64,000 nt of DNA. It comes from Parabacteroides acidifaciens (GTDB lineage Bacteria > Bacteroidota > Bacteroidia > Bacteroidales > Tannerellaceae). Made by a program: the position numbers and the translations under genes. The DNA lies in contig NZ_QREV01000004.1 of assembly GCF_003363715.1 (NCBI RefSeq), positions 62,001 to 126,000 on the forward strand. Direction: 5' to 3'. Under the pieces are notes generated by a model. It had not been told where the DNA came from. It saw only the letters and a list, made by a program, of their open reading frames with translations, and ran no database searches. Within the stretch, counting starts at the first letter, position 1. The number at the start of each line of letters is the position of its first letter. This document shows, piece by piece, positions 3,891 to 22,204 of the stretch.

Positions 3891-5264
3891 ATGATCCTAA
3901 TAGTAGACGATGATTCTGCCGTTCGTTCTTCGCTGACCTTCCTGTTGAAACGGGCCGGATTCGAGCCGGAAGCCGTTCCGGGTCCGGAGGAAGCCTTGGC
4001 TGTCGTGCGTCAGACAGCTCCGCAGCTTATCCTGATGGATATGAACTTTACGCTGACTACCACCGGTGAGGAAGGCATACAACTATTGAAGCAGGTGAAA
4101 ATCTTCCGACCCGATGTCCCTGTGATCCTGATGACGGCATGGGGCTCCATCTCGCTTGCCGTGCAAGGGATGCAGGCCGGCGCCTTCGATTTTGTGACCA
4201 AACCTTGGAACAATCTCGTTTTACTGAAATCCATCCGGACGGCGCTCGAGCTGAGCGAACAGAAGAAGGAGCAGGAAACGCCCCTGAACCGTCTGGATGC
4301 CGATAATAAATTCCATTTCGACAAGATAATTGGCCAGAGCGCCCCGCTGATGGAAGTCTTAGGGACTGTTTCGCGCATCGCCCCGACAACTGCCTCCGTC
4401 CTGATCACGGGAGAGAGCGGTACCGGAAAGGAGCTGATTGCCGAAGCGATCCATGCCAACAGCCCACGTGCGAAAGAACCCTTCGTGAAAGTCAACCTCG
4501 GCGGCCTGTCGCAGAGCCTTTTCGAGAGCGAGATGTTCGGCCACAAGAAAGGTGCCTTTACGGATGCCTATATTGACCGCACCGGACGTTTCGAGATGGC
4601 CAATAAAGGAACGATTTTCCTCGACGAGATCGGTGACCTCGAATTATCTTGCCAGGTGAAGCTCCTGCGTGTCCTGCAAGACCAGACGTTTGAAGTATTG
4701 GGCGACAGTCGCCCCCGCAAAGTCGATATCCGGGTAGTTAGCGCCACGAACTGCAACCTGCGCGAGATGGTTGCCCAGCGTGCCTTCCGCGAAGACCTGT
4801 TCTACCGCATCAACCTGATCACCATTCACCTGCCTGCCTTGCGCGAGCGTAAAGACGATATTCCGCTGCTGGCTCGTTATTTTGCCGACAAGCAGTCCGA
4901 GATGAATGGCCTGCCCGCCGTCCGCTTCTCGTCCGAAGCATTGACGTTCCTGCAGAAACAACCCTATCCGGGAAATATCCGCGAGCTGAAAAACCTGGTC
5001 GAGCGCACGATATTAGTGTCCGGCAAAGCCGTTCTCGAAGCCTCCGATTTCGAGAGCCAATGCCTGCATGCGCCCTCGCTGCAGGCGACACCCTCCGCGC
5101 CGTCGCTCGAAGGGCTGACGCTCGATGAGCTGGAAAAGCAGACCATTCTTCAAGCTCTCCGGACGCATGCCGGCAACCTCTCGCACGTCGCGACCGCCCT
5201 CGGCATCAGTCGTGCCGCCCTCTACCGGCGTCTCGAAAAGTATGATATACCCATTGACAAATAA
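3891..5264 (+). CDS. Sigma-54-dependent response regulator, NtrC family
   Basis: A 457-residue enhancer-binding response regulator. The receiver domain covers residues 1-120, with acidic residues D6-D8, phospho-acceptor D50, T82 and K104. The AAA+ domain covers about 143-375, with Walker A GESGTGKE (174-181), the sigma-54 contact loop GAFTDA (221-226) and Walker B IFLDEIGDL (242-250). A Fis-type helix-turn-helix sits at 430-450 (NLSHVATALGISRAALYRRL). It is 12 bases from the next gene, a histidine kinase, its probable partner. It likely activates the sigma-54 promoter at 2199. The signal sensed is unknown; homologous sets in Bacteroidetes sit beside ABC exporters, which fits cell-envelope or export stress. 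Confidence 0.95.
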   Translation: MILIVDDDSAVRSSLTFLLKRAGFEPEAVPGPEEALAVVRQTAPQLILMDMNFTLTTTGEEGIQLLKQVKIFRPDVPVILMTAWGSISLAVQGMQAGAFDFVTKPWNNLVLLKSIRTALELSEQKKEQETPLNRLDADNKFHFDKIIGQSAPLMEVLGTVSRIAPTTASVLITGESGTGKELIAEAIHANSPRAKEPFVKVNLGGLSQSLFESEMFGHKKGAFTDAYIDRTGRFEMANKGTIFLDEIGDLELSCQVKLLRVLQDQTFEVLGDSRPRKVDIRVVSATNCNLREMVAQRAFREDLFYRINLITIHLPALRERKDDIPLLARYFADKQSEMNGLPAVRFSSEALTFLQKQPYPGNIRELKNLVERTILVSGKAVLEASDFESQCLHAPSLQATPSAPSLEGLTLDELEKQTILQALRTHAGNLSHVATALGISRAALYRRLEKYDIPIDK

Positions 5265-5276
5265 TCCCGAAAGCGC

Positions 5277-6578
5277 ATGAGGATAAAAGGACTGTTCTGG
5301 ATCTTGACCGTGTTGCTGCTCTCAGTGCTGGCGATACTCACCTGGCATGCCTTCTATTCCGATTCGTCCAAGATGTTTTTCATTGTGGAAGGCGTTGTCG
5401 TGCTGACGATTATCTATTTGGCTGTTTTCTACAGCCGCATCATCAAACCTCTCCATATCATCGGTAACGGTATGGAGCTGCTGAAAGAGCAGGACTTCAG
5501 TTCCCGTCTGAGCCGTGTCGGGCAGACAGAGGCGGACCGCATCGTCGACATCTTCAATAAGATGATGGAACAGCTGAAAAACGAGCGCCTGCATCTCCGC
5601 GAGCAGAACCACTTCCTCGACCTGCTGATCAACGCCTCTCCGATGGGCGTGATCATGCTCAACCTGGACAAGGAGCTTCTCTCTGCTAACCCGGCAGCCC
5701 GCAAGATGTTCGGTGTTTCCGCGTTGTCCGATCTCGCCGGGTGCCGGTTGTCGGAAATCGACTCTCCGCTCGCGTCGGAGTTGGAGCGGATTCCGCTGTA
5801 CGATTCGCAGACCGTCCGCCTGAACGATGCTAACATATATAAATGTACGCATTCATCGTTTGTAGACCGTGGCTTCCATCATTCCTTCTACCTGGTCGAG
5901 ATCTTGACGCAGGAAGTCTTCAAGGCCGAGAAGAAAGCCTACGAGAAGGTGATCCGGATGATCGCGCACGAGGTGAACAACACGACGGCGGGCATCACTT
6001 CGACTCTCGACACGCTCGAGTCCACCTTTAGCGAGATGCAAGACACGGAAGACATCTGCGAGGTGCTGCGTGTTTCGATCGAACGTTGCTACAGCATGAG
6101 CCATTTCATCACCAACTTTGCCGACGTTGTGCGCATCCCCGAGCCACAGACCAAGAGGCAGCCGTTGAACGCGGTTGTTTTCTCCTGCAAGCGCTTTATG
6201 GAGACGATCTGTCAGAACCGTGATATCCGTATTGTCATGGATTTATCGCCTGTTTCGCCGATTGTCGACCTGGACAATTCGCTTTTCGAGCAAGTGCTTG
6301 TCAACATCATCAAGAACGCCGCCGAATCGATCGACCACGACGGCCATATCTACATCCGTACGTCGCATAATCCCGTCTGCTTAGAAATCGCCGACACCGG
6401 TAAAGGCATCGACAAAGCGACGGAAGCGAAGCTGTTCAGCCCCTTCTTTTCGACCAAGCGCGGCGGTCAAGGCATCGGTCTTATCTTCATTCGCGAAGTC
6501 CTCCAAAAACACAACTGCACCTTCTCCCTCCGAACGTATGCGGACGGACTGACGAGGTTTAGGATTGTGTTTGAGTGA
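5277..6578 (+). CDS. Membrane sensor histidine kinase (HAMP-PAS)
   Basis: A 433-residue sensor kinase. Two membrane helices (about 5-22 and 34-52) enclose a very short periplasmic loop, so sensing is probably within the membrane or cytoplasm. Next come a HAMP-like linker (53-105) and a PAS domain (about 110-215). The dimerisation box holds H231 in MIAHEVNNT, and the ATPase domain has N347 (NIIKNAAES), DTGKG at 373-377 and GGQGIGL at 396-402. It follows the NtrC-type regulator by 12 bases, so the two form a two-component system in one operon with tolC. The NtrB/ZraS-like architecture fits control of a sigma-54 activator. Confidence 0.93.
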   Translation: MRIKGLFWILTVLLLSVLAILTWHAFYSDSSKMFFIVEGVVVLTIIYLAVFYSRIIKPLHIIGNGMELLKEQDFSSRLSRVGQTEADRIVDIFNKMMEQLKNERLHLREQNHFLDLLINASPMGVIMLNLDKELLSANPAARKMFGVSALSDLAGCRLSEIDSPLASELERIPLYDSQTVRLNDANIYKCTHSSFVDRGFHHSFYLVEILTQEVFKAEKKAYEKVIRMIAHEVNNTTAGITSTLDTLESTFSEMQDTEDICEVLRVSIERCYSMSHFITNFADVVRIPEPQTKRQPLNAVVFSCKRFMETICQNRDIRIVMDLSPVSPIVDLDNSLFEQVLVNIIKNAAESIDHDGHIYIRTSHNPVCLEIADTGKGIDKATEAKLFSPFFSTKRGGQGIGLIFIREVLQKHNCTFSLRTYADGLTRFRIVFE

Positions 6579-9219: not shown

Positions 9220-9831
9220 ATGCGTACGTATAGCGTTATGACTTTATTCCTGCTTCTCTGCCTCTCTCTTTCGGCGGCGGAGAAGCCGGATTTTGATACG
9301 GCGGTGCGTGCCGCCGTCTCCCGTCAGATGCAGACTTATCCGAAATCGACATTGAAAGACCTGTATAAGAATTTCTTTCAGGATAAGTTCGGCCCCGGGC
9401 ATATCATCGGTGATACGGCGGCTGCCGGTAATTATCTGCGCCGTGAACTTGCTTCCTACACGGAATGTTCCGGCGATATTGCTGAGCCGACCGGCTGGGA
9501 AGGTAATTTCTTTCGGGTGAACCTCTCGGTTATCAAAACCGGACAGATTCCGTATGCGACCTTTTTCGATGCCTTTGTCCGTAGTGTAAACGGGATTCAG
9601 CCTGTAACGGTTGCCGAATGGAAAAAGGAGTGGCTTCAGATCGAGGCGATTATCCGTTCCATGGAACTGGCTTTACCTGGTTATGAAGCCGACCGGAAAG
9701 AGATTGAAGAACGGTTGGACAGGGGAGAGTATGTCGGACATCACAGCAAAGTCTTTGAAGAAACTTACTCGCCTCATTACCGTATTGTCAGCAAGGATAT
9801 ATTTGAGAAGGAATTGAAACCATTGCTGTAA
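9220..9831 (+). CDS. Exported protein of unknown function, 203 residues
   Basis: The protein has a signal peptide (MRTYSVMTLFLLLCLSLSAAEK) with no lipobox Cys, so it is probably periplasmic. The mature part is soluble, with conserved-looking segments LKDLYKNFFQDKFGPGHII (residues 46-64) and GYEADRKEIEERLDRGEYVGHHS; the latter, with its paired His, could bind metal. I do not recognise the family. It lies 4 bases after the TlpA-like gene and ends 1 base before the convergent S4-domain gene, so it closes its operon. Confidence 0.8.
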   Translation: MRTYSVMTLFLLLCLSLSAAEKPDFDTAVRAAVSRQMQTYPKSTLKDLYKNFFQDKFGPGHIIGDTAAAGNYLRRELASYTECSGDIAEPTGWEGNFFRVNLSVIKTGQIPYATFFDAFVRSVNGIQPVTVAEWKKEWLQIEAIIRSMELALPGYEADRKEIEERLDRGEYVGHHSKVFEETYSPHYRIVSKDIFEKELKPLL

Positions 9832-9832
9832 T

Positions 9833-10267
9833 TTATTCATCCTCGTCCGGATCTCCGAAATCAAAGTCGAAGTCGAAACCGTCGCCGGCCATTCCCGGAT
9901 CAGTGAACTGTTCCAGTTCGCGGCGGTCCTTTTTGGTCGGACGGCCTAAGCCGCGTGCGCGGTCGACAAAACCGGAGATGCGGTTCATTTCCAGGATTTC
10001 ATACTGGTCGGGTGTCGTTACGTTTTCCAAAAAGCCCGGCACCAGTTTGGCTCCCATGCGGTGTTCCGTTAAGTCGAGCACTTTGAATGAATAGGTGATA
10101 GGCGGTTTGCGCACCTGTATCACTTCGCCGACTTTGATCATGCGGGAAGGTTTTATTGTGACGCCGTTTATCATGATCCGGCCTTTCTTGCAGGCCTCGG
10201 CGGCTATCGTACGTGTTTTGAATATGCGGGTAGCCCACATCCATTTATCTATACGGACTTCGTTCAT
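9833..10267 (-). CDS. S4-domain RNA-binding protein, HslR (Hsp15) family
   Basis: A 144-residue cytoplasmic protein. The S4 fold is clear in residues 4-65: RIDKWMWATRIFKTRTIAAE followed by CKKGRIMINGVTIKPSRMIKVGEVI. Hsp15 proteins bind stalled 50S subunits carrying nascent chains. The C-terminal tail is very acidic (DFDFDFGDPDEDE), unlike the basic tail of E. coli Hsp15, but acidic tails are not unusual in this phylum. It lies 13 bases after pth and in the same direction as the L25 gene, so a translation-related cluster is evident. Confidence 0.88.
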   Translation of the reverse strand: MNEVRIDKWMWATRIFKTRTIAAEACKKGRIMINGVTIKPSRMIKVGEVIQVRKPPITYSFKVLDLTEHRMGAKLVPGFLENVTTPDQYEILEMNRISGFVDRARGLGRPTKKDRRELEQFTDPGMAGDGFDFDFDFGDPDEDE

Positions 10268-10280
10268 AATAAATTCTCAA

Positions 10281-10844
10281 CTATTTATTGTTGTATAGGT
10301 TCATCGTATTCTGTACTCCGGCCAGGCAGAAACTTTTGATGATTTCTACGGCCCGTTTCATTTTCTCCGGCATAAGCTGGAGTTCTTCCGGCGGAAATTT
10401 GCCCAGCACATAGTTGATCTGTCCGCCACGCGGGAAGTCGCTGCCGATACCGAAGCGGAGGCGGCTGTATTCTTGTGTGCCTAACAATTGCTGGATGTTC
10501 TTCAAGCCGTTATGCCCGGCATCGCTGCCTTTGGGTTTGAGGCGGAGCGTCCCGAACGGAAGCGCGAGGTCGTCTACCACAACCAGCAGGTTTTCTACCG
10601 GGATATTTTCTTTCTGCAACCAGTAGCGGACGGCATTGCCGCTCAGGTTCATGAATGTGTTCGGTTTCAGTAGAATCAGCTCACAGTTCTTGACACGCAT
10701 CCGGGCAATTGCGCCATAACGTTCTTCTGTAAAAGGAACGCCGGCATCTTCCGCCAGTGCGTTTACCACACGGAATCCGACATTGTGGCGGGTTCCTAAG
10801 TATTCGGAGCCGATATTACCAAGTCCTGTTATCAAATATTTCAT
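10281..10844 (-). CDS. pth: Peptidyl-tRNA hydrolase
   Basis: A 187-residue Pth that cleaves the ester bond of peptidyl-tRNAs dropped by ribosomes. It has the usual length and motifs: GLGNIG at residues 7-12, N-x-G-like catalytic region with H20 (TRHNVGF), [10 protein letters not shown] (60-69), [10 protein letters not shown] (88-97) and [12 protein letters not shown] (105-116). It lies between the L25 gene (102 bases upstream) and the S4-domain gene (13 bases downstream); ctc-pth-hslR order is common in Bacteroidales. Confidence 0.96.
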
Positions 10845-10889
10845 TGTCTGTTTATTTTGGGATGTACATCAGGTATCTTATATATAGCA

Positions 10890-10924
10890 AAGGGAAGAAT
10901 ACTCCGTTAGAATATCCTCCCCTT
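10890..10924 (-). terminator. Possible terminator or attenuator between rplY and pth
   Basis: Segments 10890-10903 and 10911-10924 are largely complementary (with G-U wobbles) around a 7-base loop. The hairpin lies 23 bases after the rplY stop. Only a short T run follows on the minus strand, so termination would be partial and pth might still be read through. Confidence 0.45.
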
Positions 10925-10946
10925 CGATTATTTGATACAATACTGA

Positions 10947-11534
10947 TTATTGTGCTTTTGCCTGAGCACCACGAGCGGCACGAGTCAACTGAACGGCGCA
11001 GACAACTGCGTTCTTAGCGTTTATCAGTTCAAGACCTTCGAAGTGCAATGAACCAACCTGCATAGTCTTTCCTAAGCCCAGGTGGTCAACATTGATAAAT
11101 AATTTTTCGGGGATAGCAGTGTAGATCGCTTTTACTTTCAGCTTTCTCATCTGCAGGCTCAACTTACCACCGGCTTTAACACCTTCAGCGTGACCTTCCA
11201 GAACAACCGGAACTTCCATTACAACCGGTTTCTTATCAGATACTTCCATGAAGTCCATGTGCATGATAGCATCTGTTACAGGCTGGAACTGGATGTCTTT
11301 TACGATAGCCATCGTCTTTTTGCCGTCGATAGTCAATTCTACGACAAAGATTTCAGGAGTGTAAACCAAGTTACGAACGCTGTCTTTTGTAATGATGAAG
11401 TGAGTTACTTTTTCACCGCCGTACAGTACAGCAGGGATTTCGTTGTTTTTACGCATAGCTTTCAAAGCTCTCTTCTGGTCTGCAGAAGTAGCTGCTACTT
11501 CTCTTGACTTTCCTTCTAATTGAAATGTCTTCAT
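10947..11534 (-). CDS. rplY: 50S ribosomal protein L25 / general stress protein Ctc
   Basis: A 195-residue L25 of the long Ctc type, which binds 5S rRNA. The N-terminal L25 domain (residues 1-90) begins MKTFQLEGKSREVAATSADQ and contains RKNNEIPAVLYGGEKVTHF. The C-terminal beta domain (95-185) includes VPVVLEGHAEGVKAGGKLS, the typical TL5/Ctc element. The tail is Ala-rich (RAARGAQAKAQ). A TAnnTTTG box lies about 85 bases upstream. It leads a cluster with pth and the S4-domain gene. Confidence 0.95.
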   Translation of the reverse strand: MKTFQLEGKSREVAATSADQKRALKAMRKNNEIPAVLYGGEKVTHFIITKDSVRNLVYTPEIFVVELTIDGKKTMAIVKDIQFQPVTDAIMHMDFMEVSDKKPVVMEVPVVLEGHAEGVKAGGKLSLQMRKLKVKAIYTAIPEKLFINVDHLGLGKTMQVGSLHFEGLELINAKNAVVCAVQLTRAARGAQAKAQ

Positions 11535-11617
11535 TCTTTTTTAATTTTTGTGTTACTCAAAATTAGATGTTTATGCTTTCTAATTTCCCATCACACGTAC
11601 GGGGGTTAAAAGCGGTG

Positions 11618-11625
11618 CAAAGGTA
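11618..11625 (-). promoter_or_regulatory. -7 box of the L25 gene
   Basis: The minus-strand sequence TACCTTTG fits TAnnTTTG. It gives an untranslated leader of about 75 bases before the L25 start at 11534. Such a leader could hold an autoregulatory structure, but I see no clear one. Confidence 0.6.
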
Positions 11626-11649
11626 CGATTTATATTTATATCTGCAAAA

Positions 11650-11746
11650 TCTTGTCTGCATGAAATTTTAGTTCCATAGGCATGAAACTAAAATTCCATG
11701 GGCATGGAACAAAAGTTTCGTCGGCATGGAACTAAAAAGGCATGCC
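11650..11746. repeat. 22 bp-period array, TTCCATGGGCATGGAA family, four units plus a remnant
   Basis: Units begin at 11650 (degenerate), 11672, 11694 and 11716, exactly 22 bases apart; a partial AGGCATGCC follows at 11738-11746. Each unit is a 16-base dyad-like core (best copy TTCCATGGGCATGGAA at 11694-11709) plus a 6-base A-rich spacer (CTAAAA, CAAAAG). The array ends 3 bases from the stop codon of the SDR gene and lies between it and the L25 promoter. Related arrays are at 26308 and 51595. Confidence 0.9.
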
Positions 11747-11749
11747 GGT

Positions 11750-12601
11750 TCAAAAATGGAATCCCTTTTGTCTGAGCAAAATTTCCGTGTCGTCCCAGAG
11801 TTGTTTTTGCTGAATATGATGCAGGATGCGTACCGGAACTTTTGTCTCTTTGCAATTGGCATAACAACGACCGCTTTTCTCTTTCGGTTCATCCGATAGG
11901 GCGAGATGGATGGCTGTAGCGGCTCCTTGTGCCGGCGTTTTGATAAACGGGCGGAAGAAGATGTCGGTCAGCGGGTCGAACCAGGCTTTCATCGTGATCA
12001 TATTGGTGCTGACGATTCCCGGATCCGAAGCGTTTACCGTAATTTCTTTTTCCCGGATACGTCCGGCAAGTTCCTGTGTGAACAGCAATAAAGCCAACTT
12101 GGTATTTCCGTAGACCGGGATGCGGGAGAAACGTCCGCTCTTTCCTTTCTCAAAGAAGTCGGGACCAATCTTGCCGATGGCATACGTGCAAGATACCGTG
12201 TTGACGATACGGCAACCGGGTTGCATCAGCGGCAATATTTGCCGGGTGAGCATGTAAGGCGCCACGTAGTTGACGCTTACGATTGTTTCCAGCCCATCCT
12301 CGGTTCCGCGTACCGGAGTGGTCAGGATTCCGGCATTGTTTATCAAACGGCTGACAGGCCGGCCTTCTTTCAACAATTGGCTGGTGAAGTTGTTAACGGC
12401 CGACAGGGATGCGAGGTTGACAGGGCGTACTTCTATCTGCGTGTTTCCGGTCTCGTTTTTGATCCGTTCGCAGACAAGGGTTGCTTTCTGTGGGTTGAGG
12501 CAGGCCATGATCACCGGATAACCCTCTTTTGCGAGCGCTGTCGTGATGACTTGTCCCATGCCTCCGTCGGCACCGGTTATGATGGCTAATCCTTTTTCCA
12601 T
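11750..12601 (-). CDS. SDR oxidoreductase, candidate 3-hydroxysteroid dehydrogenase
   Basis: A 283-residue short-chain dehydrogenase. The cofactor loop is T9-G-A-D-G-G-M-G16, with NNAG at 88-91 and the catalytic set S137, Y164 and K168 (VYGNTKLA). The family interconverts alcohols and ketones with NAD(P)H. The start overlaps the stop of the flavin reductase gene by 1 base (TAATG), so translation is coupled. With an SRD5A-like reductase and an Old-Yellow-Enzyme reductase in the same operon, a steroid or bile-acid 3-keto/3-hydroxy step is the best guess. SDR sequence alone does not establish the substrate or 3-alpha versus 3-beta outcome. Confidence 0.9.
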   Translation of the reverse strand: MEKGLAIITGADGGMGQVITTALAKEGYPVIMACLNPQKATLVCERIKNETGNTQIEVRPVNLASLSAVNNFTSQLLKEGRPVSRLINNAGILTTPVRGTEDGLETIVSVNYVAPYMLTRQILPLMQPGCRIVNTVSCTYAIGKIGPDFFEKGKSGRFSRIPVYGNTKLALLLFTQELAGRIREKEITVNASDPGIVSTNMITMKAWFDPLTDIFFRPFIKTPAQGAATAIHLALSDEPKEKSGRCYANCKETKVPVRILHHIQQKQLWDDTEILLRQKGFHF

Positions 12602-13827
12602 TACTTATATTCCAGTTTTTCTATTTCTTTGATGATACTTTTGGGTAAGTTCTGAATATGTTTGTGGCAAGCCATTTCGATGGAATACATGCGGGCGATG
12701 CAATAGTTGCTGTGTCCGCAGTCGCAACGGGCATGCTCGTCTTCCTTCATCTTATTGACGAATGAAGGATCGTTCAGCAAGGCGCGTGCCATGCTGACAA
12801 ACTCGAAACCGTCGCCCAGGACTTCGTCTATCTTCTCGCGTGAGATCAGTCCGCCTACATACACAAGCGGCATTTTCAATGCAGCCCTGAACTTCAGCGC
12901 GTCTTCGAGGAAATAAGCCTCTTTGAACGGCTCGGACGGGATCATGAGGCGTCCGGCCATTTTAACGCCGATCGGCAGCCAACCGAAAGGCATATAATGC
13001 GTCATCGTATGGATCGGCATTGCGCCGCGCATCACATACATCGGGGCGCGGCTGACGAAACCGCCGCTCAGCACCAACGCCTGCGCTCCGCATTCGTCCT
13101 GCAGGGTGCGGGCTACTTCGATCGTTTCGTCGAGTTCCATTCCGCCTTTGAATCCGTCGCGCATATTCACCTTGACCAGCACGGCCATATCCGAACCGGC
13201 AGCTTTCATCACCTCGTCCATGCACATTTTCATGAAACGCATCCGGTTTTGCAGGCTGCCGCCATATTCGTCTTTCCGGTGGTTGGTGTAAGGAGAGAGG
13301 AACTGGCTGATCAGGTAGCCGTGTCCGGCATGTATCTCGACTGCATCCATGCCGGCTTCGCGTGCCAGATGCACGGCCTGCCCGAATGCTTTGGAGATTG
13401 CTACGATCTCGGAGGGTTTCATGCCCCGGACAAGCGTAGGGGAGTAGATATTGAAACCGCTGGATGCCGATATAGGCGTACATCCGCAGATATTTTTATG
13501 AGACATGTTCCCGCAATGTCCGAGTTGTACGGAAGCGGCTGCACCTTCTTTATGGATCGCATCGGTGATACGTCTTAATCCCGGAATGATCTCCGGCCGC
13601 ATCCACAATTGCCTTTCAAAGGAAAGTCCGCTCTGGGTGACGGCCGCATAAGCTAATGTCGTCATTCCGATTCCGCCGGCTGCTACTGATGTGTGGTAGT
13701 CGTACAACATATCGGAAGGCGCATTTCCCGGACACATGCTTTCGAATGCTGCCGCCCGTATCGTCCGGTTCCGCAAGGTCAACGGACCGATCTTTGCAGG
13801 AGTGAATAGAACAGATTCTTTTTCCAT
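12601..13827 (-). CDS. NADH:flavin oxidoreductase (Old Yellow Enzyme), candidate steroid 5-beta-reductase
   Basis: A 408-residue FMN-dependent TIM-barrel reductase. The core is clear: SVQLGHCGNM (about 98-107), HAGHGYLISQFLSPYTNHRKDEYGG (about 166-190, OYE signature) and a C-terminal phosphate-binding part YVGGLISREKIDE...GFEFVSMARALL. A Cys-rich segment near the end has spacing C-x-C-x5-C-x10-C; it could bind an iron-sulfur cluster but differs from the C-x2-C-x3-C-x11-C of BaiCD and 2,4-dienoyl-CoA reductases. The FAD/NAD domain that follows in BaiCD is absent. Such enzymes reduce the C4-C5 double bond of 3-oxo-delta-4 steroids to 5-beta products. Neighbours support this role. Confidence 0.88.
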   Translation of the reverse strand: MEKESVLFTPAKIGPLTLRNRTIRAAAFESMCPGNAPSDMLYDYHTSVAAGGIGMTTLAYAAVTQSGLSFERQLWMRPEIIPGLRRITDAIHKEGAAASVQLGHCGNMSHKNICGCTPISASSGFNIYSPTLVRGMKPSEIVAISKAFGQAVHLAREAGMDAVEIHAGHGYLISQFLSPYTNHRKDEYGGSLQNRMRFMKMCMDEVMKAAGSDMAVLVKVNMRDGFKGGMELDETIEVARTLQDECGAQALVLSGGFVSRAPMYVMRGAMPIHTMTHYMPFGWLPIGVKMAGRLMIPSEPFKEAYFLEDALKFRAALKMPLVYVGGLISREKIDEVLGDGFEFVSMARALLNDPSFVNKMKEDEHARCDCGHSNYCIARMYSIEMACHKHIQNLPKSIIKEIEKLEYK

Positions 13828-13846
13828 AACTGTATGTGTTTATCTT

Positions 13847-14614
13847 TCAATATATAAAAGGGATCACCCGTTTCCGGTTTCCCAGTTCGTTTCCAAACAT
13901 AGCTTTATATTTATGATAGATGGTGTTGGCGCGAGGCACCAGATTGGCAAAGGTCCACCAGGCGAACACGGCTCCGCTTGCGCTCCAGGTCAGGATGGCA
14001 AAACCGCACCATTCCACTATTTCGCCGAAATAATTAGCCGAAGTTACATAGTTGAACATTCCTCCTTTGGGCAGGTAATGCTTTGTGTCGCCCGGTTTGC
14101 GCAGATGGCGGACGATATGGTCCGAATGAATATTGATCCCCATGCCGGTGAAGAAAAGGATTGTCCCGATGATGAATAGCGGACTGTACAGCCAGCTTTC
14201 GGTGTACATATCTTGCGGGGCCAGGTGGAAAATCCATTCTCCTTGCATATATCCGTTCAATATGTTGAAAGTAATCCCCATCAGCATAATTCCCGCCGGC
14301 ATCTTGCTATTGCCTTTTATCAGCAGAGGGAAGATAAAAGCCCGCTGGAAATAATGCAGTTCGAAGAATAGGAATATCAGCAACGGCACCGTTTCAAACT
14401 GCCTTTCTGAGCCGTTCCATAGTAGGAACATCACGATGAAAACAGGTGCTTCCATACAAATCCAGGCAATTCGGTTCGGTATCGGAAAGCCCCATTTCTT
14501 GTCGAACAGCATTCCGTAGCCGGCTTCCACAAAGTAAAGCGTGATGAAAACAATGGCGGCAATGGCTGCCATTACAATTAGAAATAAGGTGAAATGTTCA
14601 GTCGTCATCATCAT
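13847..14614 (-). CDS. SRD5A-like 3-oxo-5-alpha-steroid 4-dehydrogenase (5-alpha-reductase)
   Basis: A 255-residue multi-pass membrane enzyme that strongly resembles human SRD5A1/2 along its whole length. Shared blocks include INIHSDHIVRHLRKPGDT (160-177), LPKGGMFNYVTSANYFGEIV (181-200) and EWCG (201-204). E55 (WICMEAPVF) and Y88 (FELHYFQR) sit where the catalytic Glu57 and Tyr91 of SRD5A2 lie. The family uses NADPH to reduce the C4-C5 double bond of 3-oxo-delta-4 steroids to 5-alpha products. The start overlaps the response-regulator stop: ATGATGATGACGACTGA serves both, so any of three Met codons could start it. This is the key gene for naming the operon. Confidence 0.93.
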   Translation of the reverse strand: MMMTTEHFTLFLIVMAAIAAIVFITLYFVEAGYGMLFDKKWGFPIPNRIAWICMEAPVFIVMFLLWNGSERQFETVPLLIFLFFELHYFQRAFIFPLLIKGNSKMPAGIMLMGITFNILNGYMQGEWIFHLAPQDMYTESWLYSPLFIIGTILFFTGMGINIHSDHIVRHLRKPGDTKHYLPKGGMFNYVTSANYFGEIVEWCGFAILTWSASGAVFAWWTFANLVPRANTIYHKYKAMFGNELGNRKRVIPFIY

Positions 14615-15302
14615 CGTATGTTGATAATTTGTATCCTTTCCCGTGAATGTTCACGATCCGGATTGTCGGATCGTCTTGCAACAGTTTGCGCAACTTGGTG
14701 ATATAGACATCCATACTGCGGGCATTGAAATAGTTGTCGCTTTTCCAAATGACTTGTAGGGCCTGCATCCTGTCTATCGTCTGGTTGGCATGCTGGCACA
14801 AAAATGTGAGCAAGTCTGCTTCTTTGGTTGTCAGCTTGGTCGTTTTGTCTTCGATAGACAAGAGCTGCTTTTGTATGTTGAATCTGAACTTGCCGAAGAT
14901 GTAGATTTTTGTCTCTTTCCTCTCTTCCGGATGATAGCGCTTTTGTATCGCTTTCATACGTGCCAGCAGGATTTCAAAGTCCAGCGGCTTACGTATCACG
15001 TCATCGGCATGGAAAGAAAATAATAAACTGATATCTTCTCTGGTTGGGTGATCACATAAGAAAATAACAGGGATTATTTTCTCCGAACTCTTCATCATAG
15101 CGACAAATGTTCGCGTTTCTTTTACGGCCAGATTATTATCTATAATACAAAAATTGAAATGACCGGAGAGGAAACTCTCGTACGCGGTTGTTTCCTGGTC
15201 AAATACCTGTGAGTCGTATCCGGCGGCTTTCAAATTGTCTTGAATAATAGCTCCCTGGGCATTGTCTTTACTAAAAATAAGAATGTTTGAGTGATCGTCC
15301 AT
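14598..15302 (-). CDS. Orphan OmpR-type response regulator, coupled to the steroid genes
   Basis: A 234-residue DNA-binding response regulator. The receiver domain (6-120) has D14, phospho-acceptor D55 (FCIIDNN) and a Lys in RKPLDFE. The winged-helix domain (about 130-225) contains TTKEADLLTFL and NYFNARSMDVYITKLRKLL, the OmpR recognition helix. The acidic-pocket pair is reduced (SKDN rather than DDD), so phosphorylation may be unusual. No histidine kinase gene lies nearby. It starts 9 bases before the PG0541-type gene end and its last codons (D-D-D-D-D) overlap the start of the 5-alpha-reductase gene by 17 bases. It may control this operon in response to steroid or bile stress. Confidence 0.9.
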   Translation of the reverse strand: MDDHSNILIFSKDNAQGAIIQDNLKAAGYDSQVFDQETTAYESFLSGHFNFCIIDNNLAVKETRTFVAMMKSSEKIIPVIFLCDHPTREDISLLFSFHADDVIRKPLDFEILLARMKAIQKRYHPEERKETKIYIFGKFRFNIQKQLLSIEDKTTKLTTKEADLLTFLCQHANQTIDRMQALQVIWKSDNYFNARSMDVYITKLRKLLQDDPTIRIVNIHGKGYKLSTYDDDDD

Positions 15303-15311
15303 TATCTCCTT

Positions 15312-15605
15312 TTATATTGTTTTTTCGATGTTCCAGACGAAAGCCCGTAACCCTTGGGCTTCTGTCTTTTGATCCATCTGGCGAAGTATTTCCAGGAAAT
15401 TGTCGACCTTTTCATCGTCCACCATTGCCAGGATTGCCGAGTTTAATGTCGGCCAGGCATGGCTTCCGTAATGAGGTTCACCTGTTTTACTGCCACGTCC
15501 CTGCACTTCGTCCCAGTATGTGAAGCCCCGGATATTATTTCGGTCCATCACACTAAGGATCATTTCGTAATATGCTTGATTAAATGATACAAATATAGCT
15601 TTCAT
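15312..15605 (-). CDS. PG0541-family transporter-associated protein (PII-like)
   Basis: A 97-residue soluble protein. It resembles the small conserved protein that follows RND pumps in Bacteroidetes (PG0541 of Porphyromonas gingivalis follows the PG0538-0540 pump genes); I name it by recalled similarity and this context. Features include RGFTYWDEVQGRGSKTGEPH (about 26-45) and a predicted ferredoxin-like fold of the PII type. Its biochemical role is not known. It lies 165 bases after the pump gene, separated by a 24 bp repeat array, and 9 bases before the response regulator, so it may be read from the pump promoter or from a new one. Confidence 0.75.
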   Translation of the reverse strand: MKAIFVSFNQAYYEMILSVMDRNNIRGFTYWDEVQGRGSKTGEPHYGSHAWPTLNSAILAMVDDEKVDNFLEILRQMDQKTEAQGLRAFVWNIEKTI

Positions 15606-15640: not shown

Positions 15641-15760
15641 AAATGTATATTCATCTATATGCTTAGATAGCATACTGCTTATCTCTGTAGATGACATATT
15701 ATTCATCCTCTTAGATAGGGTATTATCTATGTTGTAAGATAATACCTTATCTAAAAGAAT
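15641..15760. repeat. 24 bp-period array with AGATAnnnTATTATCT dyad cores
   Basis: Four units start at 15665, 15689, 15713 and 15737, each exactly 24 bases long; a degenerate unit at 15641 may be a fifth. The best cores are 16-base dyads (AGATAGGGTATTATCT at 15713-15728 and AGATAATACCTTATCT at 15737-15752). Units 3 and 4 can pair in RNA to form a long hairpin. The array starts 10 bases after the RND pump stop codon and fills the gap to the PG0541-type gene, so it could punctuate pump versus steroid-gene expression. Confidence 0.85.
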
Positions 15761-15770: not shown

Positions 15771-18700
15771 TTATCTGTTTTTTGCCAGCTTCCGCCGTCT
15801 GCGGCGAACTCCGTTTCCGGCAAATACACTGTACACGACCGGTACGATCACCAACGTGATCAAAGTGGATACCGAAAGTCCCCATGCCACCGTCATACCC
15901 ATCGAGCGCCACATTTCCGAACCTTCGCCTGTCCCGATGGCCATCGGAATCATACCTAATACGGTTGTCAGTGTTGTCATCAATACCGGGCGGAGACGGG
16001 ATTTACCGGCTGCCACGACTGCCGTCAGGATTCCCATGCCGCGTTCACGGCAAAGGATCGTGTAGTCGATCAACACAATACCATTCTTTACTACGATACC
16101 CATCAACATAATCAGACCGATCAGCGCCATAACGCCCAATGGAGTCTGTGTTATTGACAGTCCCAAGATGATACCCGTAAAGGCAAACGGTATGGAGAAC
16201 ATGATCACAAACGGGTCTGTCAACGATTCGAACTGGGCGGCCATTACGATAAATACCAGGATAATGATCAGGATCATCAGGATGGTCAGGTCGAAGAACG
16301 TATCCATCTGGTCTTCATACGTACCGCCTAACTGCCAGCTTACATCCGAAGGAATATCCATTTGCTTCAGCTGGGCGCGGGCGGCAGTTACGATATCACT
16401 CATCGCCGCACCTTTTCCGACTACGGCCGAAACGGTGATGATACGCTCGCGGTCTTTACGTTCGATAGTCGGCGGAGTCATGCGTTCGACGACTTTTCCC
16501 AAGTCGCGGATGCGGATTCCCTGGCCGGAAGCATTGTAGACCATGATGTTCTCGATGTCTTCGACCGACTGGCGGAATTCGGGCGCATAGCGGACTTTGA
16601 TGTCATACTCGTCGCCGTCTTCACGATATTTAGAAGCGGTAGAACCGTTGATGCGGTTACGAAGCGCCAGCGCGGCTGTCGTAATGTTCAGGCCGTTTAT
16701 CGCCAACTTCTCACGATCGAAGTCTACCTGATATTCGGGAATATAGTCCTCACGGCTGATATTGACCTGCGAGCAGCCTTTTACTTTACGCATCCGTTCG
16801 GCCAGTTCAGCTGCCACTGCATCGGTGCGGCCGAAGTCGAAACCGTAGATCTCGATGCTGACGGCATTCTGTCCGCCCATACCTTCTTCCTGTCCGCCTT
16901 CGATCACTTTGAATGTCTTGATCTCCGGATATTTGGCCAGGTCTTTACGCATCTCCTCGCATATCTCGACCATACCGCGTTCACGATCGCCGACGCTCAG
17001 CATATTGATATAGAAGTCGACGATATGTGTTCCGTTATTGCTTAACTGCGCCCAGGTGTTGTCTGAATCGGCCTGTCCTTCGGTGAAGTTACTGGTCTTT
17101 ATTTCCGGATATTTCTGGCGGAACAGTTCGTCTATCTCCAAAGCTAACTTACGGGTGATATCCTGGCGCGTGCCGACAGGCAGTTCGATATGGACGCTGA
17201 TCTGGGCATTATCCTGAGTCGGGAAGAACTCTGTCTTGATCGTCGGGACCAACATCATACTGCCGGCAAAGATCAAAGTTGCCCCTGCTATCACGGTTTT
17301 TCTGTGACGTACTGCCCAATAAAGGAATCGGGAATAACCATGATCGAGTGCATCCAGCGCCTTTTCGATCGGAGTGAAGAACAGGACATACAGACGCCCT
17401 TTGTTCGGATTCAGCCTGAGCAGTTGCGAACTCAACATCGGTGTCAGCGTCAAGGCTCCGACCGTAGATACAATCATGATGATACTGACGATCCAACCCA
17501 ACTGCTTGAACAAGATACCCGCCATACCCGTCACCATTGTCAACGGAAGGAACACCGCCAACATCGTCAGGGTGGAAGCGACAACAGAGATTGCCACCTC
17601 ATTGGTCGCATGGACGGCCGCCTGTTTCGGTGCGCTACCCCTCTCGATATGGGTCGTAATGTTTTCCAATACCACGATCGCATCGTCCACAACCATACCG
17701 ATCGCAATGGAAAGGGAACTCAGTGAGATAATATTCAGTGTGTTGCCCGATGCCAGCAAGTAGGCGAACGAAGCAATCAACGAGATCGGAATGGTCAGGA
17801 TAATGATAAACGTCGCCCTCCAACGTCCGAGGAAGATAAATACCACTAACATCACGATGATGAAGGTGATGAAGATCGTCTCTTTCAAACTGTCGATCGT
17901 GTTCAGAATGTTAGTCGAAGTATCCATGATAACTCCCAACTTAACATCCGACGGAAGGCTTTCCTGGATTTCCGGTAACCGCTGGTGTACCTTTTTGGCA
18001 ATGTTCACCGAGTTGGCTCCCGATTGCTTCTGGATCACGATCATACCGCCCTTCTTTCCGTTGTTGAAAGTTTCCTGTGCGCGTTCTTCGATACTGTCCT
18101 CGATACGCGCAACGTCGCGGAGGTAAATCGTTTTATTGTCCTTGTGCCCGATGACCAGGTTGTCCATCTGGTGGGCGTCCGTAAACTCACCTTGCACGCG
18201 GAGTGCATAAGCATTGGAACCTATATCCACGCTTCCGCCCGGCGTATTCCGGTTTTCCTGTGCGATGATGGAGGAGATGCCTTCGATCGAAATGCCGTAG
18301 GCTTCCAGCTTGTAGGGATCGCAATAGACTTGTATCTCGCGTGTCGGCGTACCGGAAATAGACACGGCGCCTACGCCGCTGATACGGGCCAACGGGTTTG
18401 AAACCTTATCATCCAGTATCTTGTACAGGGCATTTGTGCTTTCTTCCGCCGTAACTGACAGGATAATAATGGGAATGTCGTTCGTCCCGAATTTGAAGAT
18501 GATAGGATTGTCCACATCATCCGGCAGCATCGGTTCGGCCACGTCCAGTTTATCGCGCACATCATTTGTCGCCACGTCGATATCCGTACCGTAGTCGAAC
18601 TCGAGTGTGATGATCGATATGTTTTCACGTGACTGTGACGTGATGTGTTTCAGGTCGCTGACACTGTTCAGCACATTCTCCAACGGTTTGGAGACGTTCA

Positions 18701-18881
18701 TCTCGATATCCGCAGCACTGGCACCGGCGTATGAGGTCATGACCATGATGGTGTTTGTCTCGATCTCCGGCAGCAAGTCCACTGATAATCGGGTTAATGA
18801 AAAAAGACCGAAGATAACGATTGCCACAAAGACAAGGGCGGTCGTAACCGGCTTTTTTACCGCTGTTGCATATAAGCTCAT
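15771..18881 (-). CDS. RND multidrug efflux pump, AcrB/MdtB-like permease
   Basis: A 1036-residue inner-membrane proton-driven exporter of the HAE1 family, full length. It begins MSLYATAVKKPVTTALVFVA with the first helix at about 12-30, has two large periplasmic loops and two six-helix bundles (about 335-540 and 860-1020). The conserved proton-relay stretch GMVVDDAIVVLENI (near residue 400) supplies the paired Asp. It needs the adaptor and TolC genes upstream in the same operon. It resembles pumps that export bile salts, detergents and antibiotics; because steroid-active enzymes follow, bile acids or steroids are plausible cargo, but this is inference. Confidence 0.96.
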   Translation of the reverse strand: MSLYATAVKKPVTTALVFVAIVIFGLFSLTRLSVDLLPEIETNTIMVMTSYAGASAADIEMNVSKPLENVLNSVSDLKHITSQSRENISIITLEFDYGTDIDVATNDVRDKLDVAEPMLPDDVDNPIIFKFGTNDIPIIILSVTAEESTNALYKILDDKVSNPLARISGVGAVSISGTPTREIQVYCDPYKLEAYGISIEGISSIIAQENRNTPGGSVDIGSNAYALRVQGEFTDAHQMDNLVIGHKDNKTIYLRDVARIEDSIEERAQETFNNGKKGGMIVIQKQSGANSVNIAKKVHQRLPEIQESLPSDVKLGVIMDTSTNILNTIDSLKETIFITFIIVMLVVFIFLGRWRATFIIILTIPISLIASFAYLLASGNTLNIISLSSLSIAIGMVVDDAIVVLENITTHIERGSAPKQAAVHATNEVAISVVASTLTMLAVFLPLTMVTGMAGILFKQLGWIVSIIMIVSTVGALTLTPMLSSQLLRLNPNKGRLYVLFFTPIEKALDALDHGYSRFLYWAVRHRKTVIAGATLIFAGSMMLVPTIKTEFFPTQDNAQISVHIELPVGTRQDITRKLALEIDELFRQKYPEIKTSNFTEGQADSDNTWAQLSNNGTHIVDFYINMLSVGDRERGMVEICEEMRKDLAKYPEIKTFKVIEGGQEEGMGGQNAVSIEIYGFDFGRTDAVAAELAERMRKVKGCSQVNISREDYIPEYQVDFDREKLAINGLNITTAALALRNRINGSTASKYREDGDEYDIKVRYAPEFRQSVEDIENIMVYNASGQGIRIRDLGKVVERMTPPTIERKDRERIITVSAVVGKGAAMSDIVTAARAQLKQMDIPSDVSWQLGGTYEDQMDTFFDLTILMILIIILVFIVMAAQFESLTDPFVIMFSIPFAFTGIILGLSITQTPLGVMALIGLIMLMGIVVKNGIVLIDYTILCRERGMGILTAVVAAGKSRLRPVLMTTLTTVLGMIPMAIGTGEGSEMWRSMGMTVAWGLSVSTLITLVIVPVVYSVFAGNGVRRRRRKLAKNR

Positions 18882-18893: not shown

Positions 18894-19919
18894 TTACTTT
18901 TCGATTTCTACTTCCATTCCGTTGTTCAAGCGGCTCTGACCGGATACGACTACCTGGTCGCCGCTGTTGACACCTGAAATGACTTCATATTTGTTACCCA
19001 TACGACGTCCGAGTTGTACCTTTTCATAGGAAACTTTGCCGTCTTTATATACATATATATAACGGTCGCCTGCACCTGACTGTTTTACGATAGACAAATC
19101 CGGAGCGACTACATGGTTTTGCGTACCGAAGCCCATCGTGACACGGGCGAACATACCCGGACGGACACGTTCATCGCTGTTGTCTATCTTGATTTCGACC
19201 GGGAACGTACGCGTGTTTGGGTCGATGGTCGGGTAGACCAGGCTGACTTTCCCTTTGAAGACCTCGTCGCCGTACACATCCAGCCGGATATCGACCTCTT
19301 TTCCCTTCTTTACTTTTGTGAAGAGACTTTCGGAAACGTTGACCATCAGTTTGACCGGACGGATCTGTTCTACGGTGAAAATAGGCGAACCTCCGCTGTA
19401 CATGTCGCCGCTGTCATAATTGCGGGCGGTCACAATACCTGTCACCGGGCTTAGCAACTGCGTGTTCTCTTCCAGGTTCTTATAGGCTGCACGGCTAACG
19501 TCCAACTGCGTCTTCTGGGCATCCCAGGCCGATTTGGAGGCGCCGCCCACTTTGTACAGTTCGTCGATACGCTTAAATTCCAGTTCCTGGTTGTCTAATT
19601 GTATTTTAGTTTGTTTGAGGTTTGTCTCATCCATTTTGACCAGCAACTGGCCTGCTTTTACATGGTCGCCCACTTCGGCAAACAGTTTAGCGATGCGCAC
19701 CGGTGTCTGCGGGGCGATATTGTTAGAGATGTTGGCTTCGACAGTTGCCGTAAACTCACTGATCTGCTCCACGTCCTGTGCCGAAACGGTTTCCACTCTT
19801 ACGAGAACCTTGTCATTGGTTGTCTCTGCCTGCGTCGCCTCTTTCTTTTCTCCTGAGCAAGACAGCAGTAAAGGCAAAATGAGAAGGGATATGAAGTGTT
19901 GTTTTCTATTTGTTTTCAT
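18894..19919 (-). CDS. RND efflux periplasmic adaptor (membrane fusion protein), lipoprotein
   Basis: A 341-residue adaptor that joins the RND pump to TolC. The lipobox LLSC has Cys21. A lipoyl/barrel-sandwich domain with VGDHVKAGQLLVKMDETNL near residues 86-104 is followed by a short coiled coil (about 105-150), the second lipoyl half (ENTQLLSPVTGIVTARN), a beta-barrel and a membrane-proximal domain ending VVVSGQSRLNNGMEVEIEK. It lies 12 bases before the pump gene and 35 bases after the tolC gene, so the three form one operon behind the TetR gene. Confidence 0.95.
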   Translation of the reverse strand: MKTNRKQHFISLLILPLLLSCSGEKKEATQAETTNDKVLVRVETVSAQDVEQISEFTATVEANISNNIAPQTPVRIAKLFAEVGDHVKAGQLLVKMDETNLKQTKIQLDNQELEFKRIDELYKVGGASKSAWDAQKTQLDVSRAAYKNLEENTQLLSPVTGIVTARNYDSGDMYSGGSPIFTVEQIRPVKLMVNVSESLFTKVKKGKEVDIRLDVYGDEVFKGKVSLVYPTIDPNTRTFPVEIKIDNSDERVRPGMFARVTMGFGTQNHVVAPDLSIVKQSGAGDRYIYVYKDGKVSYEKVQLGRRMGNKYEVISGVNSGDQVVVSGQSRLNNGMEVEIEK

Positions 19920-19954: not shown

Positions 19955-21337
19955 TTAAAACTCTTGTTGGCCCAATACTTTTTCCAGGTCTGCTTTTGCG
20001 ACCATATAATCGTAAATAGCTTGGTTGAAATTTAGTTTGGCCTGCGTCAGCGCCAGCTCCGAATCATTCATTTCAAGCAGCGTCCCGGCTCCCGTATCGT
20101 ATCGCTTTTGTGAAATCATATAACCCCGTTCGGCTTGTTCCACTCCCTTTTGCGAAGCGTCGAACCGTTTGACACAAGTGTTCATGTTGTCCACATATTG
20201 CTTGATGGCCAGTTGCAGGTTCCGCTGCGTATCTTCCCGCTGGAGGTTGAGCTGTTCGATAGAGTTTCTCGTCTGTTTGATTTTGTAGAACTTGCTCCCG
20301 CCGGAAAAGATCGGAATCGAAAGGGAAACGCCGATCATCGAATAAGGATTCCACAGATAGTTTTTAAACTTGAAATCATTGTTCATCGCTGTCCACTGGT
20401 ACATCCCCGTGAGCGAAAGCGTAGGCAGATAATCGAATTTTTGCATCGTCAACGTCTTATCCAACTGTTTGGCCTGCAAGTCCATTTGCCTTAAATCCGT
20501 GTTGTCGGCCAATGTTGTATCTGTCGACAGGAAATCGCCGAACAGGTCCGATTTGAAATCGGTCAGTTGTCCTTCGCACTTGATGTTTATGTCCAAGTCC
20601 ATGCCTAACAATGCTTTCAGTTGCCATTTGGCAAGCACCAATGCATTTTCAGCCTGCAGCATATTCGGTTCGCTGTTCTTCACGGTAACGTTTGCACGTA
20701 TCAGGTCGTATTCGGCAACTGTTCCCTGGTCGAATTTCTGTTTGATGTCCAGATAATTCTCCATTGCATTGTCGTAACTTTCCTTGAATACGCGGTATGA
20801 GTCATTAGCAAGAAGCACGCCGTAATAGCTTTTCTTTACCTGGTTGACCATCGCTATCTTGGAAGAACGCGCCTGTTCGATAGCCATTTCCACGTCGACA
20901 GCCGAAATACTCAGGCTTTTCCACAGGGCTGCGTTTACAAGCGGCACAGAAGCGTTGAAGCCGAGACTCCAGTTGTTGTCACGCCCCACTTCGATCCCTT
21001 CGTCCATGTTCGGCATGTCTTCCATCCCCGGTATTTCCGTGCTTCCCATATCGAAACCGTCCATATACATCACCTGCTTTTTCAGGGTGCGGTTGTAGTC
21101 GGCTGCGAAACTGATTTGGGGAAATAAAGAGGCATAAGAACCTTTTTGCGCATATTTTTTCTTTTGGATTTCCTTATCTGCCACTTTTACGGTGGGGTTC
21201 TCGCTCAGCGCAATCTCCAGGGCTTTCCCTATGTCAAGGACAAGCGTGTCCTGGGCTTTGACAGGGATGAAGACCAGTGCGGACAGTGATACCAGTACGA
21301 TCCGCATCATCTTTTTAGTAATTAAGATTTGTTCCAT
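19955..21337 (-). CDS. TolC-family outer membrane channel of the RND pump
   Basis: A 460-residue outer-membrane factor with the duplicated TolC coiled-coil architecture; signature stretches are KKSYYGVLLANDSYRVFKES and LTQAKLNFNQAIYDYMVAKADLEKVLG at the C-terminus. A signal peptide is seen in MMRIVLVSLSALVFIPVKAQ; it starts at codon 10 or 11, so the real start may be 21310 or 21307 rather than 21337. An unusual Met/Asp-rich insertion, MDGFDMGSTEIPGMEDMPNM, lies at about residues 92-111 and could bind metal. It lies 35 bases downstream of the TetR gene. Confidence 0.93.
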   Translation of the reverse strand: MEQILITKKMMRIVLVSLSALVFIPVKAQDTLVLDIGKALEIALSENPTVKVADKEIQKKKYAQKGSYASLFPQISFAADYNRTLKKQVMYMDGFDMGSTEIPGMEDMPNMDEGIEVGRDNNWSLGFNASVPLVNAALWKSLSISAVDVEMAIEQARSSKIAMVNQVKKSYYGVLLANDSYRVFKESYDNAMENYLDIKQKFDQGTVAEYDLIRANVTVKNSEPNMLQAENALVLAKWQLKALLGMDLDINIKCEGQLTDFKSDLFGDFLSTDTTLADNTDLRQMDLQAKQLDKTLTMQKFDYLPTLSLTGMYQWTAMNNDFKFKNYLWNPYSMIGVSLSIPIFSGGSKFYKIKQTRNSIEQLNLQREDTQRNLQLAIKQYVDNMNTCVKRFDASQKGVEQAERGYMISQKRYDTGAGTLLEMNDSELALTQAKLNFNQAIYDYMVAKADLEKVLGQQEF

Positions 21338-21372: not shown

Positions 21373-21984
21373 TCAGTCTAATTGTTTGTGAATATGTTTT
21401 TGTAAATAACGGTCTAAAATAGCAATTCCTTTTTCCGTGGATATTCCTCGCAGAAAGGCAAACAGAATCGTGTTGTACACTTCAGCAACGGAATGATTCG
21501 AGAGGGCGTCGGACGGGCGGATCATTTTAGCCTGCTCTTTAGCCAATAACGCTACAATCTCGAAATTGACATTTGGCTCGAAAACCCCTTCTTTGGCACC
21601 TCTTGACAGTAATTTGATGCACTTTTTCAAAAACCGGGACTTTTCTTCTTCCGTCTTTTGCATCGCTTTAGGATAACGTTTCAAGTCGTCATAAAACTTC
21701 TTGTTAAACCAGCGGGGACGCTTCATCAGTTCTTCATAAAAGAGCATAACGACATCCAATGCTGTTATCGGTTCGGATTCAAGTTGCTTCATGTAGACTC
21801 TCATCTTATTGTAGCTCATGCTGAGACATTGCATCAGTAGTGTTTCCTTATCTTCAAAGAGTTCATAAAGAGTCCGCTTGGACATACTTGTGCTACGCGC
21901 AATGTCGTCCATGCTGACATTCTTTATCCCGTGCTCGGAAAATAAGTCGAATGCCGTTAACATTATTTGTTCTTTCAGAATCAT
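21373..21984 (-). CDS. TetR-family regulator of the RND pump operon
   Basis: A 203-residue repressor. The N-terminal HTH (residues 9-55) reads MLTAFDLFSEHGIKNVSMDDIARSTSMSKRTLYELFEDKE, typical of TetR. The rest is a helical ligand domain without further recognisable motifs. It is the first gene of the leftward tolC-adaptor-pump operon. A 20-base dyad (AATCATT, 6 bases, AATGATT at 21979-21998) overlaps its start codon and may be its operator. TetR repressors of this type are usually released by a pump substrate, so bile acids or antibiotics are candidate inducers. Confidence 0.92.
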   Translation of the reverse strand: MILKEQIMLTAFDLFSEHGIKNVSMDDIARSTSMSKRTLYELFEDKETLLMQCLSMSYNKMRVYMKQLESEPITALDVVMLFYEELMKRPRWFNKKFYDDLKRYPKAMQKTEEEKSRFLKKCIKLLSRGAKEGVFEPNVNFEIVALLAKEQAKMIRPSDALSNHSVAEVYNTILFAFLRGISTEKGIAILDRYLQKHIHKQLD

Positions 21985-21998: not shown

Positions 21999-22168
21999 AT
22001 TTTGAATGCGATCAGATGCTGCAAAGGTCTGTCTAATTTAGAAAACTAAAAAGGTTTATTCTGTTACGGAATTAGTCGAAAACGAAAAGATATGGGGAAA
22101 TGTATTCTTAAAAAACCGTTATTCATTGGTAAAAAATGAAACTTTACTGTGCTTAATGAAAAAATGTT

Positions 22169-22176: not shown

Positions 22177-22204
22177 CAAATGTATGATTAGTAAATATGT
22201 AGAG

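Follow-up and report, generated by a model that had tools for sequence, protein, structure and literature searches.

A putative steroid A-ring reduction cassette at the 3' end of a predicted bile-salt-type efflux operon in Parabacteroides

Why should genes for steroid-reducing enzymes lie directly behind those of an efflux pump? This question is raised by a stretch of 64,000 nucleotides from Parabacteroides acidifaciens (RefSeq assembly GCF_003363715.1, contig NZ_QREV01000004.1, positions 62,001 to 126,000 of the forward strand; hereafter, the window), part of a 5.1-Mb genome assembled into 144 contigs. A preliminary description, made without database searches, had recognized in it five genes of a steroid-reductase and hydroxysteroid-dehydrogenase operon coupled to an orphan response regulator. 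Our answer, which gene order, homology and conserved linkage make probable, is that a known Bacteroidales bile-acid/steroid A-ring cassette forms the 3' end of a bile-salt-type resistance-nodulation-division (RND) efflux operon in Parabacteroides. The enzyme part of the preliminary reading is essentially right and already known; the coupling to the pump and the regulator is a genuine, conserved variant with a putative function.

Nine genes follow one another on the minus strand in the order TetR-TolC-MFP-RND-PG0541-RR-5AR-OYE-SDR, with successive gaps of 35, 35, 12, 165, 9, −17, 19 and −1 bases. The series opens with a TetR-type repressor (21373-21984; PF00440, 44 bits), a TolC-type outer-membrane channel (19955-21337; PF02321, 197 bits), the membrane fusion protein (MFP) or periplasmic adaptor (18894-19919; TIGR01730, 221 bits, cut-off 94.9) and the RND permease (15771-18881; PF00873, 855 bits). 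Adjoining the pump is a PG0541-family, P-II-like transporter-associated protein (15312-15605; NF045581, 125.7 bits, cut-off 45), followed by an RprY-like response regulator with a degenerate receiver (RR; 14598-15302; PF00486 (Trans_reg_C) and PF00072 (Response_reg)), an SRD5A-like steroid 5-alpha-reductase (5AR; 13847-14614; PF02544 (Steroid_dh), 154.6 bits, cut-off 22.6), an Old-Yellow-Enzyme flavin reductase (OYE; 12601-13827; PF00724 (Oxidored_FMN), 186.6 bits), which is a putative delta-4/5-beta-reductase (5BR), and a short-chain dehydrogenase/reductase (SDR; 11750-12601; PF00106 (adh_short), 100.7 bits), a putative 3-beta-hydroxysteroid dehydrogenase (3beta-HSDH). The last five genes (11750-15605) had been placed correctly in coordinates, strand and gaps (9, −17, 19 and −1), and all five family assignments hold; the five-gene extent, however, was too short, as the same-strand series takes in RND, MFP and TolC upstream and, with TetR, reaches 21984. 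The 17-base overlap of RR and 5AR depends on the choice of start codon: the window 5AR starts with three Met codons, the third of which would reduce the overlap to 11 bases and fits the 253 residues of several relatives. The series is flanked by a divergent AraC-type gene and a DUF308 gene on one side and, on the other, by genes named rplY, pth and S4-like from a reading of their translations.

The SRD5A-like protein is, by homology, a steroid 5-alpha-reductase. It scores 214 bits against structure 7c83, which we take to be a bacterial SRD5A, and 150 bits against a second SRD5A structure, presumably human SRD5A2, compared with 31 bits against a very-long-chain enoyl-CoA reductase; a TECR-type enoyl-CoA reductase placement is ruled out by these scores. 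Grouping with fatty-acid enoyl reductases, an outcome named beforehand as one that would overturn the preliminary description, was thus not observed. Ten residues (E55, H87, Y88, R91, N161, D165, R172, E198, R228 and Y236) are invariant in all 97 aligned sequences, which bears out the conservation of E55 and Y88 asserted earlier, and N194 is kept in 95 of them. Judged by roles in SRD5A2, E55 and Y88 presumably form the catalytic Glu/Tyr pair, with N161, D165, R172, N194, E198, R228 and Y236 belonging to the NADPH site. This is the single PF02544 match in the genome; the 5AR proteins of the four nearest same-genus genomes are 91-94% identical to it, and the closest named relative, among the 80 of 154 loci sampled, is that of P. 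massiliensis SN4 (94%).

The predicted structure of the flavin enzyme (mean predicted local distance difference test 90.4) fits OYEs and, over about 400 columns, matches part of the 2-naphthoyl-CoA and 2,4-dienoyl-CoA reductases (query template-modelling scores of 0.77-0.79, with 0.79 to 2-naphthoyl-CoA reductase). With these enzymes and BaiCD the flavin enzyme shares the FMN barrel and a conserved C-terminal Cys cluster; in contrast to BaiCD-type flavoenzymes, it lacks the FAD/NAD(P)H domain, for which its 408 residues leave no room, and its cysteines are spaced C370-x5-C376-x10-C387, unlike what we take to be the canonical 2,4-dienoyl-CoA reductase spacing. Its score on the BaiCD model NF041087 (642 positions) is 186.9 bits, below the cut-off of 825, and the closest sequences of solved structures are those of generic OYEs. 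H166xxH169 and C105 are present in 82 of 82 aligned sequences, and C370, C376 and C387 are each kept in 81. H388 is kept in 79 of 82. Together with C105 and the cysteines at residues 370-388, it could possibly make up a metal or Fe-S site in an OYE devoid of the FAD domain. No second match to this enzyme was found in the genome. The SDR is of the classical type by profile; N111, S137, Y164 and K168 belong to the positions that at least 97% of 58 relatives share. It is called a putative 3beta-HSDH by analogy with the published cluster.

A 5AR/5BR/3beta-HSDH cluster of Parabacteroides merdae and other Bacteroidales was reportedly described by Sato et al. in 2021. According to the literature, cited throughout from excerpts of the papers, the P. 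merdae 5AR lies in a cluster with genes for a predicted 3beta-HSDH and for an NADH:flavin oxidoreductase hypothesized to be the 5-beta-reductase, and its disruption prevented the formation of allolithocholic acid (alloLCA) derivatives (PMC10382948). The same three enzyme families stand in one series in the window, and the assignment to this cluster type is supported by their adjacency, as in P. merdae (PMC10382948). The window differs in that 5AR, OYE and SDR follow an RND series; the pump, PG0541 and the regulator go unmentioned in the excerpts on the published cluster. The preliminary description had also proposed that two C5 reductases let one cell choose between flat and bent products. This is probably wrong, as published schemes draw a relay in which the flavin enzyme converts 5-beta compounds to the delta-4 intermediate before 5AR and then 3beta-HSDH act (PMC9645264; PMC10672800); because the reviews draw the flavin reaction in this direction, 5AR and OYE are better read as a C5 epimerization relay.

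How widely the linkage is conserved was judged from 98 5AR loci, i.e. the window, stretches from further genomes and 80 of 154 listed loci, with six duplicates dropped. OYE adjoins 5AR in 74 of the 93 loci with at least 1.5 kb downstream, and where 3.5 kb or more of downstream sequence is available (82 loci), 53 have an SDR of the window type within reach; the 5AR/OYE/SDR core is thus common in Bacteroidales. Of the 35 Parabacteroides genomes searched (G000-G034), 17 gave a PG0541 match, and in 16 of these 17 OYE belongs to the same run behind the pump and PG0541 (one, G030, being counted from a contig that starts inside PG0541). The remark that the coupling to regulator and pump is the less described part is therefore upheld, and no description of a pump linked to these enzymes was found by title or abstract opening, a search with most subscription journals outside its scope; the "fusion" spoken of is an operon-like linkage, with no fusion of proteins. 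RR is present in 12 of the 17 genomes. Seven (G001, G012, G017, G026, G028, G031 and G033) have no 5AR and carry a different SDR behind OYE, with 22-25% identity to that of the window in those cases that BLAST could align (loci L158-L164), so that OYE appears as the constant partner of the pump. An SDR resembling this second type adjoins a window-type SDR in Odoribacter laneus (L060).

The pump loci share the slot before rplY, except in P. gordonii (G019), and, as far as the retrieved sequence extends, the DUF308/AraC side as well; the sequence retrieved for G028 and G031 showed neither TetR nor AraC. In a quickly built OYE tree of 82 rows, without bootstrap, all pump-linked rows fall into one set of 19 (SH-aLRT 99), comprising 16 pump-linked rows and three others: L032 (G030), cut by the contig end; L031 (G032), with RR kept and no pump; and L036 (G018), where AraC directly precedes 5AR. 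P. gordonii and P. faecis encode one more protein, probably a membrane protein and 185-187 residues long, between PG0541 and RR or 5AR (L053:8727-9287; in L055 just before 5AR), with a weak, below-cut-off match to the Pfam family 8xMP. In G008, an unrelated MFP gene and two RND-like frames of 159 and 324 residues precede 5AR (L043:13523-17220); at 22-42% identity they were rejected as copies of this pump and not counted. The RND gene there looks broken, and the locus is a second, separate efflux and 5AR neighborhood.

The pump has a clear counterpart outside the genus. The window RND is only 30% identical to its next-best paralogue in the same genome, in which PG0541 also has a single match. 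Bacteroides xylanisolvens, B. finegoldii, B. oleiciplenus and B. salyersiae each encode one close RND homologue (64-65% identity; next best 28-29%), located directly before the only PG0541 gene of the genome, and in three of the four loci the order TetR-TolC-MFP-RND-PG0541 is kept with hut genes upstream. Steroid enzymes and an RR of this kind behind PG0541 set the window apart; none occurs in the four Bacteroides loci read. In B. finegoldii (L210), the sequence read before MFP shows neither TolC nor TetR; genes that read as integrase-like lie there, at 9658-13553. The ribosomal gene rplQ is about ten genes away in the two loci that reach it (L208/L209 and L212), L214 shows hut genes, and in B. 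xylanisolvens hutH, hutI, rpoA and L17 were confirmed near the pump. A ribosomal operon of B. thetaiotaomicron is BT_2700-2731 (PMC7366714), and from this and the hut/rplQ position the orthologue there should be BT_2685-2689, by synteny and gene count. These genes are listed among highly bile-salt-upregulated operons (PMC10994844), and BT2686-2688 among bile-induced pumps (PMC11078008). The bile-salt pump BT_2792-2795 was rejected as the orthologue: the 20 kb upstream of TetR in B. xylanisolvens hold hut, ribosomal and other genes, not ribose genes, which were sought by reading the open reading frame list (the ribose locus being BT2803-2809).

The 165-base gap between RND and PG0541 contains a hairpin on the minus strand (15705-15760; 24-base arms, 88% complementary; fold z −6.9). 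Its sequence is not conserved in relatives, several of which have unrelated hairpin-like sequences in this gap, others having gaps of only 3-44 bases; an operator for RR was ruled out on these grounds. With one match in the genome, the hairpin is not a repeat element, and its role is possibly RNA processing or attenuation.

The regulator is of the OmpR type, as first described, and "orphan response regulator" is an incomplete label for it: the receiver lacks residues of phosphorylation chemistry. We aligned 13 operon copies with six regulators of the ordinary kind, namely the RprY proteins from two genomes plus four paralogues from the host genome. The acidic pair, Asp, Thr/Ser and Lys are intact in every one of these six. 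Among the operon copies, the second Asp of the acidic pocket is lost in 13/13 (Lys in 11, Gln in 2), the first acidic residue in 12/13 and the Thr/Ser switch in 12/13, and D55 and K105 are lost in 3/13 and 2/13, respectively; the third acidic position is kept in 13/13. The window copy has S-K in place of the acidic pair, then D55, C and K105, and so does not carry the receiver signature of a phosphorylation-dependent regulator. An ordinary orphan regulator phosphorylated by a distant kinase would account for D55, K105 and the third acidic position where these persist, yet the pocket and switch losses, set against six intact comparison regulators, make it very improbable; as the second Asp is lost in every copy, RR likely acts independently of a kinase. 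In comparisons with the window copy, identity falls off faster in the receiver than in the DNA-binding half, e.g. to 37% vs 67-68% in the gordonii/goldsteinii group. The stretch ARSMDVYITKLRKLL, presumably the recognition-helix region, is identical to that of the host's own RprY, whereas the receivers share 30% identity and the acidic pocket is lost; on the RprY equivalog model NF051850, RR scores 233.4 bits, below the cut-off of 370. By our own matching, RprY D12 would correspond to CheY D13. The CheY D13K/Y106W mutant carries Lys at D13 and is called constitutively active in a title cited by the source (PMC9659070).

Upstream of TetR, the divergent AraC-type regulator (22184-23110, plus strand; PF12833, 64.6 bits) occupies the same place by synteny with or without the pump. 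The intervening region holds two operator-like repeat copies on the minus strand, TTTCATTTTTTACCAAT (copy 1, 22125-22141) and TTTCGTTTTCGACTAAT (copy 2, 22071-22087). Across the divergent regions of 15 relatives, TTTCRTTTTTNACCAA occurs in 14 (not in L036) and a looser form occurs twice in 12; GTAAYNNNATAAACC is found in 13, with a CTTTG box behind it in 12, which we take to resemble the Bacteroidales −7 element. The stricter repeat pattern has three exact matches in the whole genome, two of them here. With at most one mismatch, 10 genome matches were found vs 12 for the reversed control, so that the motif alone predicts no regulon; as the pattern was drawn from the same alignment, its genome matches are not independent, and it is the conservation that is. 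Sigma-70 (16 found, 16.0 expected) and terminator (12 vs 10.9) scans were both at chance level. The divergent AraC gene and the conserved repeat mark a probable promoter. In the pump-less G032 (L031) and G018 (L036), this AraC gene, likewise divergent, immediately precedes the genes for RR/5AR and the other enzymes; L036 lacks the repeat.

Taken as one system, the locus points to a cell that may couple the modification of steroids to their export in a single programme. Transcription would start before TetR, at a promoter flanked by the AraC-type repeats. Bile acids or other 3-oxo steroids entering the cell would meet OYE, interconverting 5-beta-3-oxo and delta-4-3-oxo forms, 5AR, turning the delta-4 form by reduction into the flat 5-alpha one, and SDR, reducing the 3-oxo group to a 3-beta-hydroxyl; the co-encoded pump, tuned by PG0541, would export the steroid. 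RR would work without phosphorylation, its DNA binding being constitutive or controlled by a ligand or partner, with an RprY-like site preference. Tentatively, and with less conviction than the operon reading itself commands, we propose a dedicated reduce-and-export steroid operon, in which RND, the P-II-like partner and OYE are the fixed core, 5AR and varied SDRs are added or removed, and control would lie with AraC, TetR and an RprY-type regulator that works without phosphorylation, its acidic-pocket Lys mimicking constitutively active CheY D13K.

Several observations weigh against an operon in which steroid reduction and bile-salt-type export belong together. The 165-base gap with its hairpin could split the transcript. 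Where 5.5 kb or more upstream of 5AR is covered (72 loci), only 10 have the pump, all in this genus. P. gordonii has the pump, RR and 5AR at the locus but neither OYE nor SDR there, P. faecis has no RR at the locus, and G032 and G018 have the enzymes without a pump in the neighborhood, their genomes giving no PG0541 match. Conversely, the pumps of Bacteroides, Coprobacter and Odoribacter adjoin no steroid gene in the stretches read. The match to BT_2685-2689 was made by position and gene number, not with B. thetaiotaomicron sequence, and for the deletion of BT2686-2688 the excerpts give a biofilm test but mention no bile-tolerance phenotype (PMC11078008). Much of this would be expected if a general multidrug or bile pump and a steroid cassette merely shared a slot by common ancestry, without functional coupling: the pump-linked cases form one tree set in one slot, and other Bacteroidales likewise carry the enzymes without a pump. 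Such plain adjacency is unlikely in our view, although it deserves serious weight; while RR, 5AR and SDR type vary between the pump and rplY, OYE stays in the run in 16/17 genomes, tightly spaced and co-directional.

The operon reading leaves the chemistry to be weighed. 5AR is clearly homologous both to human SRD5A2 and to a bacterial SRD5A, and a chicken-gut survey, in the excerpt, credits the annotated gene only with the capacity to modify bile or steroid hormones (PMC6069880), as would suit natural substrates that are other delta-4-3-ketosteroids or plant sterol derivatives and not bile acids. We regard this as improbable, given the loss of alloLCA derivatives on disruption of the P. merdae 5AR (PMC10382948) and the bile-salt induction of the pump orthologue as mapped by synteny. 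Little probability likewise attaches to OYE being a general ene-reductase that detoxifies electrophiles rather than a steroid 5-beta-reductase. Its generic nearest solved relatives, its score far below the BaiCD cut-off and its persistence with the pump in genomes without 5AR speak for such a role; its place next to 5AR in 74/93 loci and its published standing as a hypothesized bile-acid 5BR (PMC10382948) speak against it.

Elsewhere in the window, an NtrC-like regulator gene followed by a sensor-kinase-like gene (3891-6578, from their translations) forms a pair of its own near the cluster and not linked to it, and two tRNA-Met genes lie 1.7 kb apart (56165-56239 and 57954-58026).

Isoallolithocholic acid (isoalloLCA) reportedly inhibits Gram-positive pathogens such as Clostridioides difficile at low micromolar levels (PMC10382948); steroid sensing, pathway control and product release in its producers are not covered in the review excerpts. 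From the seven genomes that have the pump and OYE but lack 5AR, products are predicted to split within the single genus. Should the pump export the products, making and releasing them would form a single genetic unit in Parabacteroides, with the pump, the AraC repeat and the kinase-free regulator as direct handles on the pathway.

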